A stretch of 64,000 nucleotides of DNA from Gemmobacter nectariphilus. GTDB lineage: Bacteria > Pseudomonadota > Alphaproteobacteria > Rhodobacterales > Rhodobacteraceae. The stretch's first letter is position 1, and every line of letters begins with the position of its first letter. Positions 6,031 to 59,598 of this stretch are shown one piece after another. Location: assembly GCA_020721445.1 (NCBI GenBank), contig DYMU01000010.1, forward strand, positions 1-64,000, in the 5' to 3' direction. The notes under the pieces are model-generated. The model had not been told where the DNA came from. It saw nothing but the letters and a program-made list of their open reading frames with translations, and ran no database searches. The translations under genes and the position numbers were made by a program.

Positions 6031-6540
6031 ATGACCAAGTCGAAGAAGCCTGAGTTCCGTCCGAATGAATTCGTCGTCTACCCCGCGCATGGCGTGGGAA
6101 AGATCATGTCGATCGAAGAGCAAGAGATTGCCGGCTTCACGCTGGAATTGTTCGTCATCACCTTTGAAAAGGACAAGATGACGCTGCGGGTGCCGACACA
6201 CAAGGCCACCGAAATCGGCATGCGGGCCCTGTCGGCACCGGACGTGGTGTCAAAGGCTCTGGATACCCTGAAGGGCAAGGCCAAGGTCAAGCGGGCGATG
6301 TGGTCGCGCCGCGCGCAAGAGTATGAGCAAAAGATCAACTCGGGTGATCTGATGGCCATTGCCGAGGTCGTGCGCGATCTGCACCGCAGTGATGACCAGC
6401 GGGAACAATCCTATTCCGAGCGTCAGCTTTACGAAGCCGCGCTGGAGCGGCTGACCCGTGAAGTGGCCGCTGTTGGTGGCGTCGATGCCGGGGCTGCGGC
6501 GAAAAAGGTTGATGACGTTCTGGTCAGCCGCGCGGCCTGA
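6031..6540 (+). CDS. carD: CarD family transcriptional regulator
   Basis: 169 aa. The N-terminal RNA polymerase-interacting domain (RID, about 8-65) opens with EFVVYPAHGVGKI, the signature of CarD/CdnL proteins, and is followed by a helical DNA-binding domain (about 70-165) with the RAMWSRRAQEY segment. CarD proteins bind the RNA polymerase beta subunit and stabilise open complexes, particularly at promoters with weak -10 regions. The start at 6031 is the first ATG and gives the expected length. It is monocistronic, with its own predicted promoter and terminator. Confidence 0.93.
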   Translation: MTKSKKPEFRPNEFVVYPAHGVGKIMSIEEQEIAGFTLELFVITFEKDKMTLRVPTHKATEIGMRALSAPDVVSKALDTLKGKAKVKRAMWSRRAQEYEQKINSGDLMAIAEVVRDLHRSDDQREQSYSERQLYEAALERLTREVAAVGGVDAGAAAKKVDDVLVSRAA

Positions 6541-34944: not shown

Positions 34945-35400
34945 TCAGCGCCCGGTGGTGCGGGCGCTGCGGTCGCCCTGCACCGTGACGCGGGTGATGC
35001 TTTCCAACCTCTGCGGCGTCAACGTGATCGCGGCCGTCACCTCGCGCGTGCGCCGGGTGCCCACCGGGGTGCGTGCCGGCGGCGGCACGATGCGGAAATC
35101 CAGCGTCAGGTGGGTGGGATCTTCGCCCTCCACCTCGACCAGTTCGGCATTCCACCAGCCCTGACTTTCCATCACGCCGGTGGCCCGCACGATGGCGCCA
35201 CTGGCATAGGGTTCAATCGCCAGCGACACAACATCTGCCACGCGAACCACATCTTCGGCGGGGGCTGCCACGGCGGCGGCGGTCTGCACCCGCTCGGACC
35301 GGCCAAACCAGTTGAACGGGTTCAATCGCGACTCGCGCACCATGCCGCACGAGGTCAGGACCAGAACAGCGGCAAGAGCGGCGGTCAAAGGGCGTGTCAT
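34945..35400 (-). CDS. Predicted lipoprotein of unknown function
   Basis: 151 aa. A lipoprotein signal peptide ends in LVLTSCGM, with the lipid-modified Cys at about residue 18. The following NPFNWFGRSE segment is a recurring Rhodobacterales feature in small lipoproteins. The rest is a beta-rich domain of about 90 residues with no motif I recognise. ATG at 35400 is chosen to give a normal signal peptide; upstream in-frame starts at 35415 and 35442 exist. It lies tail-to-tail with rnd. Confidence 0.75.
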   Translation of the reverse strand: MTRPLTAALAAVLVLTSCGMVRESRLNPFNWFGRSERVQTAAAVAAPAEDVVRVADVVSLAIEPYASGAIVRATGVMESQGWWNAELVEVEGEDPTHLTLDFRIVPPPARTPVGTRRTREVTAAITLTPQRLESITRVTVQGDRSARTTGR

Positions 35401-35545
35401 CGGTTCATCCATCATCGCTTTGCCCTTGGGTAGCCGATACATCGGCTTTTGAAAAGGGTGGCCTTCGTTTTCACCGCGACAGCGCCAGCACTGGACGACA
35501 CAAGGTCAGCGCTTTACCTGTTGGGTCAGAAATGGAGTGTTCCCG

Positions 35546-55124: not shown

Positions 55125-55553
55125 TTACCAGTGGCCGGTGTTGCCCATGCTGAGCCATGGTTCGGCCGGGGGCAGGGCGCCGCCCTTTTGCAAAAGCTCG
55201 ATCGAGATATTGTCGGGGCTGCGCACAAAGGCCATGCGGCCATCGCGGGGCGGGCGGTTGATGGTGACGCCATTGGCCTGAAGATGGGCGCAGGTGGCAT
55301 AGATATCGTCCACCTCATAGGCCAGATGGCCGAAGTGTCGGCTGTCCGAGGGCAGGCCTGCGTCGCCGTCCCAGTTGAAGGTCAACTCGACCGGGCAGTC
55401 GGGCTGGCCGGGCGGAGCCATGAAGACCAGAGTGAAGCGGCCTGCTTCACTGTCCATCCGGCGGGTCTCTTCCAGCCCCAACAGCCGGTAGAAGGCCTGC
55501 GAGGCGTCAAGGTCCAGCACCCGGACCATGGTGTGCAGATATCGGATTGCCAT
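55125..55553 (-). CDS. gloA: Lactoylglutathione lyase (glyoxalase I)
   Basis: 142 aa VOC-fold enzyme that isomerises the methylglyoxal-glutathione hemithioacetal to S-lactoylglutathione. The four metal ligands are visible: His7 (YLHTMVRV), Glu56 (CPVELTFN), His76 (RHFGHLAYEV) and Glu119 (NISIELLQ). Length and lack of insertion fit the Ni/Co-type bacterial enzyme. ATG at 55553 is the family start; upstream in-frame starts overlap nothing conserved. Downstream of the Slam-like gene on the opposite strand side (convergent spacing). Confidence 0.92.
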   Translation of the reverse strand: MAIRYLHTMVRVLDLDASQAFYRLLGLEETRRMDSEAGRFTLVFMAPPGQPDCPVELTFNWDGDAGLPSDSRHFGHLAYEVDDIYATCAHLQANGVTINRPPRDGRMAFVRSPDNISIELLQKGGALPPAEPWLSMGNTGHW

Positions 55554-55612
55554 TGTGTCTTCCCTTTCAGTGGTGCCCGAACGATCCGCCGGAAAGGCTG
55601 GGCAATGCAACT

Positions 55613-56980
55613 TCAAAAGGAACTGGACACACCGAATGTCACACCGAAGTCAGAGGTGTCGCGGACCACAACATCCGAAAACGTCCGCGCCGCCGAAATC
55701 GTGACGGTCGGACTGAAGCCGAAAGTTTCAAGTGCGTCAAATTTCGATGTTGTCGAGATATTCACCTTCAGGTCCGGCGCGAAGCTTGGGGTCATCCAAT
55801 AGTCCCGGTGCTCAAGATTTGCCTGAAACGACAGGCCGACCGGGAATTCCTTCATCGGCGGCAACCATGCAATCCCTGCCGTAGGCCCGCGCCATGCAAG
55901 CCCCGCAGCCGCGCTGTCGACCTCTTTCAGGCCGATTTCAAAAGAGACTTTGCCAAGCTGTTGCGCATTATAGGCAAGGGAAAGTCCCAGGTTTCTGGTT
56001 TGGCTGTCCAGATTTGGGCGATCTGCGTAATCCGTTGTCTCAACGCCGACCGTTCCCCCGACACCCAGCCGATTGCTTGCTGCATGAAAGACTGACAGAT
56101 TTGCTGCCAGACTGTCGCTGCTGGGCTGGCCAGCCGTCCACCGTTTGCCGACCGATCCTGACAAGCGATAGACCGTGGACTGGTTCACCCCGGTTGCCCA
56201 AAGCTTCGAAAGCTCCAGTCCCAGCTCATCCTGGGCGAAGTCGGAGGCTTTTGCCGTCGGGTCAAGGCGTTTGGCCTTGTCACTCAGCACAACAGAACGG
56301 TGCGTCCAGGCAAGGTTGATCGACGCGGTCTTGCCCAGCCGATAGTGCAAGACTGCGGACCCGCCGTAGTTCCAACCCGACAGGGCCTGACTGATGGGAA
56401 TGTCGACGCCTTGAAAGAAAAAGCTGTCATGCAAGCTGCCACCGTTCACGTTTTGCGATGGTCCGGCAAAAATCGAGACCCCAAAGCTCAGCGGACTGTG
56501 ATCAGAGACGGTCTGATAGGCCTGCCGCAGCACCGTTTTTGCGGTCGCGTTTGGCGCGTGCAGGTCTGCCCGTCGCAGCCAGTACTTTGATACCCAGGGA
56601 CGCCCGGACGCCGCAAAAGCCTCGGCCATCAGATAGGCGCCTTCGAAGCGCCCCTCTTTCGCGGTGGCCAGATGAAACCCCGTTCTGGCTGCCGCGGCCG
56701 CCTTTTCAGGGTGGCCTGCCCGGGTCAGCCCCGCCGCCAGCAACAGGTTGGCACCTGCGTCATTCGGATAGGCGCGAAGGATCTGCTGCGCGATCTTGAC
56801 GGTCAGTTTGTGGTTGCCCTGCGCCAGCGCCTTGCGTGCCAAGGCCCGTGCCCCTTCCAGATCGGTCTGGACCGTGATCTGTTCTTTGGGGGCGGTAGGA
56901 TCGGCATGGGCCAATCCTTGGCCCAGATTACTGAGAGCCGTCGCAAGGACCGCTGCAACCCGCAGCGGCACATTACGCAT
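55613..56980 (-). CDS. TPR plus outer-membrane beta-barrel protein, Slam (DUF560)-like
   Basis: 455 aa. A signal peptide (cleaved about residue 26, after AHA) is followed by TPR-like helices (about 35-150: ARALARKALAQGNHKLTVK, AGANLLLAAGLTRAGHPEKA), then a region of about 290 residues built of amphipathic beta strands ending in GVSSSF, an aromatic C terminus typical of outer-membrane barrels. That order is the Slam layout: periplasmic TPR and a DUF560 barrel that moves lipoproteins to the cell surface. ATG at 56980 overlaps the lipoprotein stop by one base (TGATG), so the two are coupled. Slam assignment is by architecture and neighbour; not proven. Confidence 0.65.
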   Translation of the reverse strand: MRNVPLRVAAVLATALSNLGQGLAHADPTAPKEQITVQTDLEGARALARKALAQGNHKLTVKIAQQILRAYPNDAGANLLLAAGLTRAGHPEKAAAAARTGFHLATAKEGRFEGAYLMAEAFAASGRPWVSKYWLRRADLHAPNATAKTVLRQAYQTVSDHSPLSFGVSIFAGPSQNVNGGSLHDSFFFQGVDIPISQALSGWNYGGSAVLHYRLGKTASINLAWTHRSVVLSDKAKRLDPTAKASDFAQDELGLELSKLWATGVNQSTVYRLSGSVGKRWTAGQPSSDSLAANLSVFHAASNRLGVGGTVGVETTDYADRPNLDSQTRNLGLSLAYNAQQLGKVSFEIGLKEVDSAAAGLAWRGPTAGIAWLPPMKEFPVGLSFQANLEHRDYWMTPSFAPDLKVNISTTSKFDALETFGFSPTVTISAARTFSDVVVRDTSDFGVTFGVSSSF

Positions 56981-57978
56981 CAGGGGCACGCCGCCGCCCC
57001 GCCGGTTGCAACGCAGTTTGACAGCACCACTTGTCCATGCTCGAACAGTTCCGAAGATGAACTTACCGGGTTGAAGACCAGCACCGCAGCGACTTCGCTT
57101 GCGTCGATACCGCCGAACAGGCCGCCATAGGTTCCTGCGGCGACATACCCTGTGGGGTCCAATCTCTGAACGCTATTGGTAAAGCTGCCGTCGGCGGCGA
57201 TGTTGGTGGATGTCAGGGCAATAGCAGCCAAGGCAGGACCAGTCGAACCATCGTTGTTTATCTGGCTACGCTGATCAACACCGCCAGAAACGCGCATTTC
57301 GGCGAAATCTGCGGTGATCAGCGCACGCCCCGTTGTCCGTGTTGCTTGCTCGGGGTTCAAACTTCCGTCCGGTCCCGACGGTGTCGGTGTCCCGGTGTTG
57401 AGCAGACCAACGTAACTGCCCGAGTAGTTGAAGCGGCCAGTGCTTTTCTGGTCATTGACCTCGGTTTCTGTCGGCACCGTGAAGACGTCTGTGCGATACA
57501 TCGCACCACCGCCGTGATACTCGGCAAACTGACCGCCATCCACGGCAACCATGCTTGTCACTGTCCCTGCAGTCTTTATCAAGGCCACGACCTTGCGGTT
57601 GGAAGTCGTGCTTTGGTAGGTATAGGCCTCATACCCATTCAGATTAAGCGTTGGATCGCGATCATAGGGGCCGGACAGGTCTTGCGCATCGATCGTGATT
57701 TGCAGGGTGGGTGCAGCCGCAACCCAGTCTTGCAAAGCCGCCGCTGTCGCCGCCTGGTCCACGTTCTGGGCCACAGCCGCGGGCAGTCGCGCATCTTCGG
57801 TGGTTGTTCCATCGCCGTCAGTGCCGTCGTCGTCGCCACCGTCGACGTCGCCATCCGTCGAGCATTCTTCCGGGCTGAACGGGTTTTTACCGCAGACGGC
57901 TTCGTTGCCGAACGGGTTTCCACCGCAGCCGGCAACGGCAAGCCCGGCCACAAGGGCCGCGATCATACGCCAATACAT
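56980..57978 (-). CDS. Surface lipoprotein candidate, TbpB/HpuA-like barrel domain
   Basis: 332 aa. Lipobox AVAGC gives a lipidated Cys at about residue 18. It is followed by an acidic Asp/Gly-rich tether (CSTDGDVDGGDDDGTDGDG), as in surface-exposed lipoproteins. The rest is beta-rich with the GRFNYSGSYVGLL and FGGIDASEVAAVLVFNP segments characteristic of the TbpB-type eight-strand barrel of Slam substrates. ATG at 57978 follows an AGCAGG ribosome binding site. It is the first gene of the pair with the Slam-like exporter. Ligand unknown (iron, heme or other cargo). Confidence 0.65.
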   Translation of the reverse strand: MYWRMIAALVAGLAVAGCGGNPFGNEAVCGKNPFSPEECSTDGDVDGGDDDGTDGDGTTTEDARLPAAVAQNVDQAATAAALQDWVAAAPTLQITIDAQDLSGPYDRDPTLNLNGYEAYTYQSTTSNRKVVALIKTAGTVTSMVAVDGGQFAEYHGGGAMYRTDVFTVPTETEVNDQKSTGRFNYSGSYVGLLNTGTPTPSGPDGSLNPEQATRTTGRALITADFAEMRVSGGVDQRSQINNDGSTGPALAAIALTSTNIAADGSFTNSVQRLDPTGYVAAGTYGGLFGGIDASEVAAVLVFNPVSSSSELFEHGQVVLSNCVATGGAAACP

Positions 57979-58281: not shown

Positions 58282-59115
58282 TTGCAGCAGTATCACGACG
58301 CGCTTCGCACGGTTCTTGACCATGGCGAGCCATCGACGGACCGGACCGGCACCGGCACGATTTCGTATTTTGGCCTGCAATCGCGCTATCGTCTGTCGGA
58401 TGGGTTTCCGTTGGTGACCACCAAGAAGCTGCATCTGCGGTCGATCATTCATGAGCTGTTGTGGTTCCTGTCAGGCGATACCAACATCGGCTATCTGCGC
58501 GACAACGGCGTGTCGATCTGGAACGAATGGGCCGACGAAAATGGCGACCTTGGCCCGGTCTATGGTCAGCAATGGCGGGCGTTTCCGGCTTTGGTGCCGA
58601 CCGGCGACAGCAAGGATGGCAAGCCGTTGTATTTCGGGCGTGGGGTTGATCAGGTCTCGCAACTGATCGACACCATCAAGACGAACCCCGACAGCCGCCG
58701 CATGATTGTCTCGGCCTGGAACCCCGGCGACGTGCCGCGGATGGCGTTGCCGCCGTGTCACACGCTGTGGCAGGTCCGGGTTCTGAACGGGCGGTTGCAT
58801 CTGCAACTGTATCAGCGGTCGGCGGACATGTTTCTTGGCGTGCCGTTCAACATTGCGTCCTATGCGCTGTTGCAGATGATGCTGGCGCATGTGACGGGCT
58901 ATCAGCCGGGGGATTTCGTGCACAGCATAGGTGATGCGCATATCTATTCCAACCATATGGATCAGGTCCGCCTGCAACTGTCGCGCAGCCCGAAGGCGCT
59001 GCCGCAGCTGCGGATCACGCGCGATGTGGCATCGATCTTCGACTTACGATACGAGGATTTCGAGGTGGTGGGCTATGCCCCCGATCCGGCGATTTCCGCA
59101 CCCGTGGCGGTCTAG
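58282..59115 (+). CDS. thyA: Thymidylate synthase (ThyA)
   Basis: 277 aa. It converts dUMP to dTMP with methylene-THF. The nucleophile is Cys159 in [12 protein letters not shown], with dUMP-binding Arg in [10 protein letters not shown] and the [16 protein letters not shown] motif. The start is TTG at 58282 (no ATG or GTG gives a full N terminus); GGGACGGGA lies upstream. It is directly followed by folA (three bases), which regenerates the folate. Confidence 0.96.
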
Positions 59116-59118
59116 GCC

Positions 59119-59598
59119 ATGATCACGCTGATTGTCGCGCGGGGCCGCAACGGGGCCATTGGTCGGAACGGGGCGATCCCATGGGACGTGCCTGAGGATC
59201 TGAAGTTCTTTCAGCGCGAAACGCTGGGTGGTGCTGTGATCATGGGCCGCACCACATGGGAGGGCCTGCCGGTCAGGCCGCTGCCCAAGCGGTTCAACAT
59301 TGTGGTTTCCGCGAATGCATCGGTGGCCGAGGTTGTGGCACCTTCGGTCGCGGCGGCGATTGCCTTGGCGCAGGGGCAGGGCCAGCCGCGCATCTACGGC
59401 ATCGGCGGCGCGCAAATCTATGCCGAGATGCTGCCGCTGGCCCACCGGATGCTGATTTCCGAGGTCGATCTTGAGGTTACGGATGCCGATACCTTCTTTC
59501 CGGCTTTTGACCCCGCCCTGTGGGTCAAGATCGGCCAATGGCCAGTGCGCCTGTCTGGTCCGGCATGCTGGGCGCACGAATACCTGAGGCGGCTGTAA
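59119..59598 (+). CDS. folA: Dihydrofolate reductase
   Basis: 159 aa. It recycles the dihydrofolate produced by ThyA. Motifs: [24 protein letters not shown] opening, [11 protein letters not shown], and the [17 protein letters not shown] segment with the NADPH phosphate-binding glycines. Both are co-transcribed with thyA, separated by three bases. Confidence 0.94.

Follow-up and report, generated by a model that had tools for sequence, protein, structure and literature searches.

Slam-Type Pairs and a Probable Member in Gemmobacter nectariphilus

According to two papers on the Slam systems of Neisseria (PMC5449769, PMC9090332), Slam1 with TbpB and Slam2 with HpuA each combine an exporter, made of a tetratricopeptide repeat (TPR) domain and a DUF560 barrel, with an adjacent lipoprotein consisting of a handle and an eight-strand barrel; Slam1 translocates unfolded TbpB in proteoliposomes, aided by the periplasmic chaperone Skp (PMC9090332). 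A bioinformatic study from 2025 describes a cluster 3 type 11 secretion system (T11SS) locus in Rhodobacteraceae/Roseobacteraceae (PMC12282271). That paper reports 0.21 cargo per channel, leaves undecided whether cargo lies elsewhere, falls below the similarity threshold or is gone, and asks whether Rhodobacterales T11SS channels are mostly without nearby cargo, have cargo that is too diverged to be recognized, or have changed function. Here we analyzed a 64,000-nucleotide stretch of Gemmobacter nectariphilus (contig DYMU01000010.1; the whole stretch is called the window), on whose minus strand a lipoprotein gene (cargo) is followed by a gene for a TPR-plus-barrel protein (exporter). Sequence homology, the predicted folds, the order and co-occurrence of the two genes and the presence of a single clear copy of each in the genome lead us to regard them, with a probability of about 0.88, as a dedicated Slam-type (type 11) export pair for a surface lipoprotein. 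The pair is a very diverged member of the kind described for the family in 2025.

56980..57978, minus strand: putative surface-lipoprotein cargo gene, 332 aa, lipobox LAVAGC (ATG at 57978, TGA ending at 56980; predicted fold)
57787..57861, minus strand: acidic flexible tether of the cargo, rich in Asp/Gly/Thr, about residues 40–64 (sequence; low pLDDT in the model)
57442..57762, minus strand: cargo handle domain, about residues 73–179 (structure model)
57016..57435, minus strand: cargo C-terminal eight-strand barrel, about residues 182–321 (structure model and fold comparison)
55613..56980, minus strand: DUF560/T11SS (Slam-type) outer-membrane exporter gene, 455 aa (ATG at 56980, stop ending at 55613; homology)
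56498..56860, minus strand: exporter TPR domain, seven helices, residues 41–161 (structure model)
55616..56491, minus strand: predicted 14-strand exporter barrel, residues 164–455, with PSxNxN, GFxP and C-terminal SxF (structure model, alignment)

The cargo stop and the exporter ATG share one base (TGATG, 56978–56982), a GTG at 56989 being a second possible exporter start. This overlap, the lipobox protein with an acidic tether, and a TPR protein whose C-terminal barrel ends in Phe (here SSSF) had been pointed out in a first-pass annotation made from the letters alone, and all three were recovered. The lipobox with its Cys18 and the signal peptide were called by sequence rules. In the structure model the cargo consists of a handle followed by a C-terminal eight-strand barrel, the arrangement of Slam-dependent surface lipoproteins, and the modelled protein has the Slam-substrate fold. 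Its nearest folds are fHbp and hemophilin (HphA/Hpl) as much as TbpB, which corrects the earlier label 'TbpB-like'. Identity to fHbp and hemophilin is about 11–17%, and the alignment of the cargo family contains no invariant or nearly invariant histidine. TbpB has two lobes, the window cargo one.

The exporter combines an N-terminal TPR domain, predicted to be periplasmic, with a barrel that is homologous to DUF560 and has 14 strands in the model, as in Slam/DUF560/T11SS proteins. A profile of 22 clear DUF560 proteins matched it with an E value of 2e-8 (hhalign 99.9%), at 12–13% identity in the profile alignment, a value that refers to this clear DUF560 set and not to Slam1 itself. At the sequence level, homology to DUF560 is clear once the relatives or the clear-DUF560 profile are used. 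In structure comparisons the barrel aligned best with CymA and OmpG, both of which have 14 strands. The absence of a Slam structure among the Foldseek matches of exporter or barrel carries no information. Scanned directly against Pfam and NCBIfam, or compared by phmmer with sequences from the PDB, the two window proteins gave sub-threshold matches or none, a related-locus search with query P0001 returned 0 relatives, and profiles A3 and A4 matched PDB sequences weakly (best 2pma, E 0.075; fHbp 1ys5, E 0.24), with TPR-type proteins among the matches listed (60 of 123).

Exporter and Cargo Across Relatives

Our first search found matches in 23 of 60 other genomes, and the pair is therefore more than a chance arrangement. 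By profile, 22 of the 23 are relatives, one of which (L046) is truncated where its contig stops; the remaining match, L048 (best E 9.7e-4), has no exporter by profile and was discarded. Profile A1 matched 258 of the 394 genomes of the family at E ≤ 1e-3, where weak matches may represent other TPR proteins. We examined 124 mostly better-scoring loci (123 after dropping L048), weaker homologues lying outside this sample. Cargo was not seen in five of the 123, of which four lack upstream DNA (the contig stops there in L046, L130 and L154, the extracted segment in L118). In 118 of 119 testable loci, counting the window, a same-strand cargo gene accompanied the exporter; after removal of the 21 of 118 used to build the profile, the figure is 97 of 98. 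A lipobox was present in 115 of the 118 cargo proteins; in L056 and L070 the gene start lies outside the locus sequence analyzed (the L070 cargo being only partly on its contig), and in L042 the cargo gene upstream of the exporter appears split over two frames (cargo frame ending at 6208). A possible exporter start was found −40 to +60 bases from the cargo stop in 117 of 118 loci. The exception, L163, encodes cargo and exporter on the minus strand in a single 768-aa reading frame that ends at about 3002 and has no stop between the two; this may be a natural gene fusion, or it may reflect loss of the stop or a misassembly.

A second sample was anchored on the glyoxalase gene next to the exporter and comprised the 80 best loci from a pool of at least 591 named ones; 74 of the 80 have at least 2.9 kb upstream. 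Among these 74, both genes were present in 34, the exporter only in 3, the cargo only in 1 and neither in 36 (Fisher p 3.7e-16, loci taken as independent); the two samples overlap, as 6 of the 38 exporters have identical counterparts in the first set. Exporter and cargo genes are gained and lost together. The closest of these 80 glyoxalases was 90% identical, and nearly all source genomes were labelled Rhodobacteraceae, Rhodobacterales or genera of these groups. One record (L256) is titled Exiguobacterium profundum, a Firmicute; because it contains a Rhodobacterales-type glyoxalase and an exporter, title or binning is probably wrong.

Exporter and cargo distances were correlated over 107 loci (rho 0.67 for trees, 0.63 for identities), values to which shared ancestry may contribute. 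The glyoxalase was rejected as a proxy for species history (rho 0.02–0.08 with either partner), being too conserved: mean identity across the 107 loci is 74% for the adjacent glyoxalase, 31% for exporters and 33% for cargo. The pair evolves fast, as one would expect for a surface structure under outside pressure.

Neighboring Genes and the Cluster 3 Locus

55125..55553, minus strand: glyoxalase/lactoylglutathione-lyase-like gene (PF00903), downstream of the exporter; the Pfam scan used the longer frame 55125–55616
58282..59115, plus strand: thymidylate synthase ThyA (PF00303), divergent, upstream of the cargo gene
59119–59598, after ThyA: DHFR (neighbor scan)

The window shares with the cluster 3 locus, as described in PMC12282271, a T11SS protein, a lipoprotein with a type II signal and a C-terminal eight-strand barrel, a glyoxalase and a thymidylate synthase. 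The latter is ThyA with DHFR in the window, whereas that paper gives a flavin-dependent type for 11 loci. Among the 90 loci (the window being one) that span 7 kb or more, the glyoxalase adjoins the exporter on the same strand in 85, a DUF1194-like gene lies downstream in 60 and ThyA is present in 17, the flavin-dependent type not having been searched for. Since DUF1194, part of the described locus, is absent from the window locus (this genome has its two DUF1194 genes elsewhere, on contigs C50 and C5), we regard the window as harboring the same kind of pair and not the exact cluster 3 locus. Exporter, cargo, glyoxalase and DUF1194 are all present in a locus (L291) of Ruegeria pomeroyi, named as reference species in PMC12282271. 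The first-pass remark that surface lipoprotein export is little studied in this group does not hold in the sense of an untouched field, given that paper. Its statement that no TonB receptor is nearby was borne out, the sole Plug-domain match of the genome (E ≤ 0.001) lying on another contig, C29; the window pair differs in this from the Neisseria systems.

Alternative Explanations

Several observations weigh against a Slam-type pair. The window exporter alone scores 12.3 bits against Pfam SlipAM, under the cut-off of 22 and unlike the cluster 3 locus of PMC12282271, and no SlipAM match above the Pfam cut-off was found in its own genome; the profile search suggested for it in the first-pass annotation thus succeeded via the clear-DUF560 profile and failed with the single protein. 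The cargo, for which a profile search had likewise been suggested, has no Pfam match. No cargo was found for the exporter of L099, which has upstream DNA, nor beside the exporters of the named loci L273, L280 (short exporter frame, 265 aa) and L308. Finally, BcsC and PelB lead the Foldseek list for the exporter model. This ranking would fit a TPR-barrel protein that exports polysaccharide, like BcsC, PelB or AlgK/AlgE, with the lipoprotein as a periplasmic accessory subunit. BcsC and PelB rank first, however, because the TPR-plus-barrel architecture occurs there too, and no polysaccharide gene was found among nine neighbors scanned between 50.1 and 63 kb. With a barrel that is homologous in sequence to DUF560 and aligns best with CymA and OmpG, and a cargo of Slam-substrate fold, we hold this explanation to be very improbable.

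Somewhat less improbable, albeit still unlikely, is a T11SS pair whose cargo faces the periplasm or whose exporter mainly moves other substrates, e.g., the DUF1194 proteins discussed in PMC12282271. The frequent DUF1194-like genes downstream and the four exporters devoid of adjacent cargo speak for it; in this genome, the DUF1194 genes are on C50 and C5, whereas the lipoprotein adjoins the exporter, carries a Slam-substrate barrel and belongs to a family whose presence is tightly linked to that of the exporter. The Slam-substrate pair proposed in the first-pass annotation, which had been tied to a DUF560 match and a Slam-like barrel, is supported by the DUF560 homology, the 14-strand barrel predicted behind the TPR domain and the modelled cargo fold.

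For such a pair, known Slam systems lead us to infer that the cargo is lipidated, crosses the outer membrane outward in an unfolded state and ends up on the cell surface. The lipoprotein would carry a type II signal, receive its lipid at Cys18 and be delivered to the outer membrane, where the periplasmic TPR domain would take it while still unfolded; the 14-strand barrel would pass it outward, and the eight-strand cargo barrel would fold outside the cell, so that a head of handle and barrel would sit on the acidic tether, anchored in the outer leaflet. This Slam1-like route appears most likely for the window pair. Because there is neither an adjacent TonB receptor nor a (nearly) invariant histidine, surface binding or shielding seems a likelier role for the head than heme or iron piracy.

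A Motif Behind the Lipidated Cysteine

57910..57927, minus strand: Cys18, predicted to be lipidated, with motif CGGNPF (sequence)
57877..57894, minus strand: second motif copy, CGKNPF, before the tether (DNA pattern search)

Only two sites in this genome fit a DNA pattern for CGxNPF, and both are inside the window cargo gene. In the wider family, [N/Q]-P-hydrophobic within 9 residues of the lipidated cysteine was found in 84 of 115 clear-lipobox cargo proteins (20 of 31 in the glyoxalase-anchored set); 1000 shuffles of the stretches behind the cysteine averaged 0.95 and never exceeded 6 of 115, which yields no probability as the cargo are related sequences. The motif was absent from 14 other lipobox open reading frames of the relatives' loci, several DUF1194-like, and from 36 other lipoprotein candidates in 757 kb of the same genome (the window plus 40 stretches), a set defined by a simple rule that admits some plain non-lipoproteins and from which a codon-position filter drops the window cargo too. 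Of the 6 lipobox frames next to clear DUF560 genes (25 loci, short flanks), 0 carried it, a number too small to judge. A separate 165-aa lipoprotein candidate in the window (34945–35442, minus strand; mature start CGMVRESRLNPFNWFG) has NPF farther from the cysteine and recalls the alphaproteobacterial BamF type. NPF does not appear in the main text of PMC12282271, and a full-text search of one paper library found no article joining surface lipoprotein, Slam and NPF.

Since the motif is kept while both the length and the sequence of the following tether vary, conservation suggests a function near the lipid, possibly in sorting, handover or packing against the exporter; common descent alone could also explain it. 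More specifically, Cys-x(2-6)-[N/Q]-P-hydrophobic might be a sorting or handover signal read by a lipoprotein carrier or the exporter, committing these lipoproteins to the surface, a tentative idea that we consider rather doubtful. If true, Alphaproteobacteria would have a surface-export signal close to the lipid in addition to the barrel, which PMC5449769 predicts to carry the Slam recognition element.

As to the question raised in 2025, for the better-scoring relatives of the window exporter our survey favors cargo hidden by divergence, and it supplies more than 100 channel–cargo pairs for testing.
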